Below, piece by piece: positions 39,362 to 40,804 of a DNA stretch of 64,000 nt; positions within the stretch are counted from its first letter, which is position 1, and each line of letters opens with the position of its first letter. Source of the DNA: Stakelama saccharophila (GTDB taxonomy: Bacteria; Pseudomonadota; Alphaproteobacteria; Sphingomonadales; Sphingomonadaceae); NCBI RefSeq assembly GCF_032229225.1, contig NZ_CP135076.1, positions 1 to 64,000 of the forward strand, read 5' to 3'. The notes under the pieces were generated by a model. That model did no database searches and was not told where the DNA came from. It was given only the letters and a program-made list of their open reading frames with translations. Position numbers and translations under genes: made by a program.

Positions 39362-39751
39362 ATGTCCATTCATAAGATGATCGCCCTTCATCCGAATGTG
39401 GGAGAGGATTTCAACGAGGCCCTCGCGACCGCGGCTCGCCACGCGATGTTCTGCGCGGAAATGTGCAGCTCCTGCGCCGACGTCTGCGTCGCCGAGAAGA
39501 TGGACATGGCGCAGTGCATCCGCTCGTGCCTCGATTGTGCCGACGTTTGTGCCGCCACGGCCCGCCTGGCTGTGCGCCGGACCGCGCAGAACATCGAGAC
39601 GCTGCGTCTGATGCTCGAGACCTGTGCGAGGATCTGCGAACTCTGCGCCGAGGAATGCGCGCGGCATGACCATGACCACTGCCAACTCTGCGCAGAGATG
39701 TGCCGGGAGTGCGCGGGCGACTGCCGGAAGGCGATCCCGACTGTTCAGTAA
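39362..39751 (+). CDS. four-helix-bundle copper-binding protein (Csp-like, DUF326)
   Basis: 129 aa with 17 cysteines in repeated CxxxC / CxxC spacing along predicted helices, for example FCAEMCSSCADVC, CIRSCLDCADVC, CARICELCAEEC and CQLCAEMCRECAGDC. This is the pattern of the copper storage proteins that hold many Cu(I) ions inside a four-helix bundle. No signal peptide is present, so it would act in the cytoplasm (Csp3-like). It is followed by two small genes on the same strand. Confidence 0.88.
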   Translation: MSIHKMIALHPNVGEDFNEALATAARHAMFCAEMCSSCADVCVAEKMDMAQCIRSCLDCADVCAATARLAVRRTAQNIETLRLMLETCARICELCAEECARHDHDHCQLCAEMCRECAGDCRKAIPTVQ

Positions 39752-39774: not shown

Positions 39775-40008
39775 ATGCGCGAGAATAGCGGACAAGGTGA
39801 CGCGAAGAACAATCTGCGCGATCCGACCTTGAAGGAGCACGAGGCTGAGGGCGGCCATCGCCCGCCTGCTCCCAAGCCCGGCGATGAAGCGGAGATCGGC
39901 GGCAACGCCCGTGCGGCCGGTGAAGACCCGTCGCCGGACGATCGCGAGCGCGGCGAAACCTCCCGCGCGGACAATGCGCCGCCGGCGGACCCTTATCCGA
40001 GATCGTGA
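39775..40008 (+). CDS. small hydrophilic protein, 77 aa
   Basis: A strong RBS (GGAGAGAAGG) precedes the ATG. The protein is almost entirely Gly/Asp/Glu/Pro/Arg/Asn, starting MRENSGQGDAKNNLRDPTLK, with no hydrophobic core and therefore likely disordered. It starts 23 bases after the copper-storage-like gene and ends 3 bases before the next one, so all three may form an operon. Function unknown. Confidence 0.72.
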   Translation: MRENSGQGDAKNNLRDPTLKEHEAEGGHRPPAPKPGDEAEIGGNARAAGEDPSPDDRERGETSRADNAPPADPYPRS

Positions 40009-40011
40009 GCG

Positions 40012-40386
40012 ATGTCGGCGATCGGCTGGAAGCTGGATGCCGGGGAGCGCACGGAATTGCTCGACCGGTTTCCGCCGGTCTGGCCTGATGTCGTAGCCGA
40101 CCATGTCACGCTGAAGGCGGATGCCAGCGCTGACGAGCCGCTGCCGACCCGGAAGACTGCCGAAATCGTCGGGAGCATCGACGATGGTGAAGGCCTGCAG
40201 GCGTTCGTTGTCTCGATCGGCGGGACCACGGACCGGCCGGACGGCAGCACCTATCACATTACCTGGTCGCTTGACCGCCGCCGGGGCCGGACGGCCGCCC
40301 AGAGCAACGAGGTGATCGCCGCACTGGGATGGAAGCAGCTTCCGACGCCGGTACCGATCCATATCGAGCCGGCAAGGTTCGGCTGA
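40012..40386 (+). CDS. small protein with two HxT motifs (possible 2H phosphoesterase)
   Basis: 124 aa. Two motifs, H31-V-T33-L (in DHVTLKAD) and H82-I-T84-W (in YHITWSLD), match the paired H-x-T/S-hydrophobic active-site motifs of the 2H phosphoesterase superfamily (RNA 2',3'-cyclic phosphodiesterases and ligases). The spacing between them is short (51 residues) and the protein is smaller than most members, close to a bare single domain. The sequence is otherwise unfamiliar. It starts 3 bases after the hydrophilic small gene. Confidence 0.6.
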   Translation: MSAIGWKLDAGERTELLDRFPPVWPDVVADHVTLKADASADEPLPTRKTAEIVGSIDDGEGLQAFVVSIGGTTDRPDGSTYHITWSLDRRRGRTAAQSNEVIAALGWKQLPTPVPIHIEPARFG

Positions 40387-40469
40387 TGCAGCTTCATCTG
40401 GACTGCGACGGCGTGCAGTGAGGTGTTAGGTCGGCTACGAGATTGTCTGCTCAAGTGCCTGTTTCTTGC

Positions 40470-40665
40470 TTTAGCACCATCGGGCCCGTAGAGTACGGCG
40501 TTCTCAATCAGGTTGCGGAGCATCAGCGACAGCATGTCGCCCGCGATCGGCAGTTCGGCATCCCATACCGCGTCATCGTACCGCAGCGTCACCGCACGTT
40601 CGGCCAGCAATGCTCAGATCGTGCTGCACAGTATCGAGAACATCGCCGCTCGAACCGAGCGCCGG
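40470..40665 (-). pseudogene. sensor histidine kinase remnant
   Basis: One frame gives GSSGDVLDTVQHDLS and, after a frameshift, another gives LAERAVTLRYDDAVWDAELP then MLSLMLRNLIENAVLYGPDG. The last piece is the N-box of a HATPase domain. The rest of the kinase, both the dimerisation helices and the ATP lid, is missing, so this is a decayed leftover, abutting tRNA-Leu. Confidence 0.65.
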
Positions 40666-40717: not shown

Positions 40718-40804
40718 TGGTGCGGTCGAGAAGACTCGAACTTCCACGGCCTTTCGGCCACAACGACCTCAACGTTGCGCGTCTACCAGTTCCGCCACGA
40801 CCGC
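40718..40804 (-). tRNA. tRNA-Leu (anticodon GAG)
   Basis: 87 bases with a long variable arm (class II) and encoded CCA. Acceptor GCGGTCG pairs with CGACCGC; the anticodon stem CAACG/CGTTG encloses TTGAGGT with anticodon GAG; T arm GTTCGAGTC. The variable arm is TGGCCGAAAGGCC. Confidence 0.96.

Follow-up and report, generated by a model that had tools for sequence, protein, structure and literature searches.

2H Enzymes, HAD Phosphatases, and RNA Repair in Phages

2H enzymes, HAD phosphatases and the RNA repair of phages are already known. For mouse CNPase the accessible part of PMC4643303 describes that, when a 2′,3′-cyclic phosphate is opened, His309 activates water and His230 protonates the 3′-oxygen, the product being a 2′-phosphate. 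In jumbo phages, 2H enzymes are predicted to clear 2′,3′-cyclic ends, and the HAD phosphatases expected to act next are PNK-HAD or Swiss-army-knife phosphatases; the available text of this source does not name NT5C (PMC7824862). A similar view of the phage 2H enzymes is found in the accessible part of PMC9503650, the sections available from PMC8475336 contain nothing on NT5C, and the name 5′(3′)-deoxyribonucleotidase appears in PMC3946280, likewise accessible in part. According to a statement of 2017, the 2H versions in the polyvalent proteins of phages, like the corresponding solo forms, had never been observed to associate with RNA ligases (PMC5512222, in its available passages).

The locus compared here with these systems lies in the first 64,000 nucleotides of contig NZ_CP135076.1 from Stakelama saccharophila, from now on called the window. 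It contains the gene of a putative minimal 2H phosphoesterase and, directly adjoining, the truncated start of an NT5C-like HAD phosphatase gene. Searches of the open-access literature, to the extent that its text was accessible, turned up no description of this minimal 2H family or of its pairing with NT5C.

The 2H Gene and Its Conservation

The gene (40012..40386, + strand; start ATG 40012, stop 40384–40386) comprises 124 codons. Its assignment to a minimal 2H phosphoesterase is based on the open reading frame, motifs, conservation, predicted fold and dN/dS. The protein contains the motifs H31-V-T33 and H82-I-T84, 51 residues apart; length, motifs and spacing were found on re-reading the frame to be exactly as given in an earlier, sequence-only reading of this DNA. 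The same reading had put the protein at about half the usual size, which is true when it is compared with CNPase (204–219 aa in the listed chains), less so when it is compared with Acb1 (137–140 aa).

Taken alone the motif pair is modest evidence, because 75 of 20000 residue shuffles of the protein also contained two H-hydrophobic-T/S motifs at least 40 residues apart. The strong evidence, as far as sequences go, is conservation. In an alignment of 145 distinct sequences, one of them the window's, 144 have a letter at H31 and 144 at T33, and at either position 143 of these keep the residue; R75 is kept in 143 of 144, H82 in 143 of 143 and T84 in 144 of 144, and every exception or gap at these five positions falls in one of three decayed copies (L019–L021). 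The scans of genome contigs and viral contigs were made with the patterns GxxYHITWSL and YHITWSL; since both contain HITWSL, H82 and T84 are fixed by construction in those scans, whereas H31, T33 and R75 were free to vary. When 199 genomes from the same family were searched without the motif, 21 matches besides the window were obtained, 18 of which have kept both motifs, the other three being the decayed copies. The nearest relative of the window gene (L064; 74 percent identical, tree support 0.92) differs from it with a dN of 0.169 and a dS of 0.712. A chance motif as explanation is ruled out by conservation and fold.

Predicted Fold

The window protein has no Pfam or NCBIfam assignment, and no 2H family of either database matches it. 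Pfam matches to DUF7556 and DUF1648 (16.4 and 13.3 bits; cut-offs 27 and 28.7), phmmer matches to PDB chains (E 0.067–8.7) and PDB profile matches to pectate lyase, ribosomal protein L14 and urease were dismissed as noise. Searching the PDB by sequence and by profile with the 2H family yielded no 2H chain, so that membership rests on fold and motifs.

An AlphaFold2 model calculated from 39 sequences (pLDDT 97.4, pTM 0.90) was compared with known structures using VIA-align. The best match was CNPase (Z 11.0, rmsd 2.9, 121 of 124 residues aligned), followed by the fungal Trl1 kinase-CPD protein 6u05 (Z 10.4) and goldfish RICH (Z 9.7); the rat CNPase NMR model reached a Z of only 7.7. The predicted fold is thus nearer to CNPase and the Trl1 cyclic phosphodiesterase domain than to Acb1 (Z 6.6–6.7), the plant CPDase 1fsi (Z 6.5) and LigT (Z 5.4). 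The Acb1 superposition (Z 6.7, rmsd 4.2, 109 residues aligned) falls within the range for which VIA-align warns that a Z under 8 may reflect merely a common arrangement. With Foldseek the top PDB match was 6u05 (E 4e-3), none reaching an E of 0.001; the top viral match (E 2e-4) was to part of a Marseillevirus RNA ligase of 765 aa, and Acb1 was also among the viral matches. Of the proteins that the sequence-only reading had named for comparison, LigT scores Z 5.4 and the fungal tRNA ligase protein with the CPD domain Z 10.4. Its assignment of the protein to the 2H enzymes agrees with a predicted fold that is 2H-like and with the conservation of both histidines.

The model therefore supports reading the window protein as a minimal 2H phosphoesterase of one domain, with CNPase and the cyclic phosphodiesterase domain of Trl1 as its nearest structural matches. 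With CNPase it shares the two HxT motifs and the best overall fold match, but it is much shorter and no sequence similarity was found. With Trl1 it shares the fold and the expected role at RNA ends, but there the enzyme is a domain of a larger healing/ligase protein, whereas here it is encoded by a free-standing gene with a HAD phosphatase as partner. Because it is a 124-aa single domain without a fused P-loop kinase, it is classed neither as CNPase nor as Trl1. If its catalytic role is borne out, it would be one of the smaller 2H enzymes available for structural work.

Distribution of the Family

The window protein matches PHROG 36523, a family of unknown function (E 2.5e-24). Relatives were found in 21 of the 199 genomes of the same family and, with the PHROG profile, in 5 of 289 genomes of the class, the window's own being counted in both cases. 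They are also present in 24 plasmid records and in four phage records of 440–490 kb (Salicola SCTP-2, Sinorhizobium Phosso and, twice, Agrobacterium Atu_ph07). Viral contigs contributed 33 loci with the protein as query and 53 with the alignment as query, the two sets overlapping. The patchy spread suggests transfer. Genome contigs gave 102 places, and the best 80 of these make up the bacterial loci analyzed here. If the function proposed below is correct, it would give a role to this unnamed family, which is common to phages and bacteria.

The presence of the gene in large phages and in the 53 viral-contig loci raises the question whether the enzyme could serve counter-defence, cutting signaling nucleotides like the anti-CBASS protein Acb1, which is itself a small phage 2H enzyme and appears among both the VIA-align and the viral Foldseek matches. 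Yet Acb1 is a weaker fold match than CNPase and Trl1 (Z 6.7 versus 10.4–11.0), copies of the gene are found on bacterial chromosomes, and the enzyme is paired with an NT5C-like HAD phosphatase (see below). We consider such a function improbable.

In some lineages the gene has neighbors of its own. In Phenylobacterium (L087, L093 and other loci) a Usg-family gene lies about 140 nt downstream. In four loci (L096, L106, L114 and L117) a gene for Ku (NHEJ, PF02735) follows after about 180 nt, which hints at a DNA-end context in that lineage; as a wider pattern the Ku link was rejected, the four loci being near-identical Sphingopyxis copies (one from a Sphingomonadales MAG). A long reverse-strand ligase frame was sought at the Ku loci, where nothing clear was found.

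The HAD Phosphatase Partner

The commonest neighbor of the 2H gene is a gene for a HAD phosphatase. It is adjacent in 40 of the 80 bacterial loci (best 80 of 102), always downstream, 36 times on the same strand and four times on the opposite one. Of 42 distinct viral loci, 25 have it next to the 2H gene, upstream in 20 and downstream in five. Within the DNA covered it was not found in the other 40 of these best 80 bacterial loci, in 17 of the 42 viral loci and in any of the three named phage loci. In 22 of the 65 listed pairs the two genes overlap (11 pairs share 4 nt, another 11 share 1 nt), the HAD starts being script-called, those of L118 and L124 looking wrong and L052 being a false motif match.

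Across the 199 genomes of the family the 2H gene is present in 21, the HAD gene in 10 and both in nine (Fisher p 2.5e-9). Seven of these nine have the genes side by side. G013 carries them on separate contigs, and in G144 each has decayed to a remnant, the 2H copy with three in-frame TGA (L020) and the HAD copy a short fragment (L205), about 1 kb apart. In 12 of the 21 genomes with a 2H gene no HAD partner was detected. The pair is therefore not obligatory, as the many loci without a detected HAD gene also indicate, and the different gene orders speak for the two genes having been joined, or held together, on more than one occasion.

The evolutionary distances of the two partners correlate with an r of 0.88 over 64 pairs, 0.52 within the 42 bacterial and 0.62 within the 22 viral pairs, a value reached in none of 2000 permutations in each case. 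The tree was calculated omitting L019–L021 (decayed), L026 (which duplicates the window's copy) and L092 and L110 (doubtful starts), and the HAD set omitting L052 as the false motif match.

By its sequence and its model, the HAD partner is of the 5′(3′)-deoxyribonucleotidase (NT5C) kind. Of its 37 members, 36 are matched by Pfam NT5C at E ≤ 0.01, although the first one scores 23.9 bits, slightly below the gathering cut-off of 24.8; the profile finds mitochondrial 5′ nucleotidase in the PDB (E 4e-11); the model (pLDDT 96.4) superimposes with a Z of 14.9 on the human cytosolic and mitochondrial deoxyribonucleotidases; and the catalytic residues (DxD, K, DD), here D6, D8, K107, D119 and D120, are invariant in the 37 sequences. 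The partner differs from the described NT5C enzymes in its genomic tie to a 2H enzyme. NT5C enzymes are known as mononucleotidases, and 5′(3′)-deoxyribonucleotidases act on 2′- and 3′-phosphates as well.

The Truncated HAD Gene in the Window

In the window the HAD gene is a remnant (40386..40421, + strand; MQLHLDCDGVQ*), the ATG of which, at 40386, overlaps the stop codon of the 2H gene by 1 nt. Ten codons (40386–40415) are homologous to the intact partners and are followed by unrelated sequence and a stop; the HAD partner of L064 starts with MQLYLDCDGVLADFD at the equivalent place. The sequence-only reading, which placed the 2H gene in a cluster of small genes, had overlooked this recurrent partner. 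A protein search and Pfam NT5C revealed no HAD partner elsewhere in the genome. Since the nearest relative, L064, carries DUF326, 2H and an intact HAD gene in a row, the HAD partner was most likely lost in the lineage of the window. With the HAD gene truncated, the 2H enzyme would work alone or hand its product to an unrelated phosphatase.

Association With RNA Repair Genes in Phages

In five viral loci (L166, L169, L172, L179 and L184) the genes are arranged in the order RlaP, a lysine-rich protein, a metallophosphoesterase-like protein, in L166 and L172 an AAA protein, an 81-aa protein, HAD, 2H and Rnl1, the last three lying together in about 1 kb. The 42 distinct viral loci together contain HAD in 25, the metallophosphoesterase-like gene in 20, RlaP in nine and Rnl1 in six, and every locus with RlaP or Rnl1 also carries HAD. 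Pfam confirms RlaP in L169 and Rnl1 in L166, L172, L179 and L184; the other labels were assigned by BLAST. A search of whole viral records, many of which are fragments, found Rnl1 in 12 of 35; it may also be common in comparable phages. The metallophosphoesterase label is one that we take from a motif: Pfam Metallophos matches four of the 148 viral neighbors scanned, and the gene in L184 has no Pfam match. The 148 come from a list of 200, from which the HADs next to 2H had been removed together with four very long genes and a few more. The 81-aa protein (4860–5105 in L166, and relatives) recurs in 18 of the 42 loci in the vicinity of HAD and 2H.

The setting resembles the T4-type RNA repair in having RlaP and Rnl1 and differs from it in that the 3′-end would be healed by the proposed pair of a 2H enzyme and an NT5C-like phosphatase, a phosphatase partner for phage RNA repair that, if the assignment is correct, has so far gone unnamed in the accessible open-access literature. 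As regards the statement of 2017, small solo 2H genes do lie near Rnl1 in these five viral loci; they may differ from the versions meant in the accessible text of that source (PMC5512222).

Processing of Appr>p by the 2H enzyme appears highly improbable. Such roles have been proposed for phage 2H enzymes (PMC9503650, in the part accessible), and the plant CPDase, which acts on Appr>p, is among the weaker fold matches (1fsi); against it, the 148 viral neighbors gave 64 families, and the 25 of these that were listed include neither KptA/Tpt1 nor Macro nor Nudix.

With the phage proteins as queries, RlaP, Rnl1 and the metallophosphoesterase-like protein were found in none of the 80 bacterial loci (best 80 of 102). 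The RNA-repair reading therefore rests on the phages, and the bacterial 2H copies, near which neither ligase nor RlaP was found, fit nucleotide salvage as well as repair. In salvage the 2H enzyme would convert free 2′,3′-cNMP from RNA turnover to 2′-NMP, from which the HAD phosphatase would then form nucleoside and phosphate. The grouping of the HAD partner with mononucleotidases is no less compatible with a small molecule as substrate than with RNA. CNPase, the closest fold, converts 2′,3′-cNMP to 2′-NMP (PMC4643303, accessible part). We nevertheless regard salvage as rather unlikely, because phage copies of the 2H gene lie near RlaP and Rnl1 and because Foldseek places an enzyme of RNA healing and an RNA ligase at the top of its matches.

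Proposed Function

The reading that we favor, with a confidence slightly above even, is that the minimal cyclic phosphodiesterase opens 2′,3′-cyclic phosphates and the HAD phosphatase strips off the phosphate, so that the RNA can be resealed. This healing of RNA 3′-ends is preferred to salvage, counter-defence and Appr>p processing on the strength of the mechanism and of the predictions for phage RNA repair. By analogy to mouse CNPase, H31 would correspond to His230 and H82 to His309, the residues being matched by motif order. The motifs H31/T33 and H82/T84 would grip the 2′,3′-cyclic phosphate, H82 would activate water, and H31 would protonate the leaving 3′-oxygen, yielding a 2′-phosphate. 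The co-encoded HAD phosphatase would then remove the phosphate and leave 2′,3′-OH ends, the pair acting like the T4 Pnkp phosphatase divided between two proteins. In some of the phages the adjacent T4-Rnl1-like RNA ligase and the RlaP nucleotidyltransferase would restore and seal the RNA. The activity itself, the substrate, RNA rather than mononucleotides, the direction of ring opening and the order of the steps are what we infer from these comparisons.

We tentatively extend this to a wider proposal, in which we place slightly less than even trust: the 2H enzyme and the NT5C-like HAD phosphatase may form an uncatalogued two-enzyme module for 3′-end healing, a split counterpart of the Pnkp phosphatase. 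Large phages would use this module in the vicinity of RlaP and Rnl1; chromosomes and plasmids of alphaproteobacteria would have retained it to repair or clear RNA cut by metal-independent RNases. The bacterium of the window would then still possess step one but no longer step two.

Local Neighborhood in the Window

Upstream of the 2H gene and in the same direction (all on the + strand) lie genes for a Cys-rich DUF326 protein (39362..39751; assigned by Pfam) and a 77-aa protein (39775..40008), which ends 3 nt before the 2H gene, belongs to no Pfam or NCBIfam family and, judged from its composition, is probably disordered. The Cys-rich protein had been called copper-storage-like. The DUF326 match stands; the Csp1-like family TIGR04401 matches only below its cut-off. 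From these two neighbors a stress-linked context had been suggested, which turned out to be mostly local. DUF326 is directly upstream of 2H in three of the 80 bacterial loci (best 80 of 102; L064, L067 and L069), for which reason a stress or copper operon as family-wide context was rejected, and the 77-aa gene is in none, the window alone carrying it among the loci compared. In L124 a partial, weaker DUF326 match lies downstream of 2H.

A tRNA-Leu(gag) gene (40718–40804, – strand) is located 0.33 kb beyond the 2H gene, the cluster of small genes being on its 3′ side. A genome island at this tRNA was considered and rejected: the 25-base stretch at the end of the tRNA gene occurs only once in the window, so that no pair of attachment sites is seen. 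Just past the truncated HAD gene, between it and the tRNA, there is a frame fragment (40473–40610, – strand), without a second copy elsewhere in the genome at E ≤ 0.001, that presumably derives from a histidine-kinase-like ATPase, as we take from its motif LMLRNLIENA.
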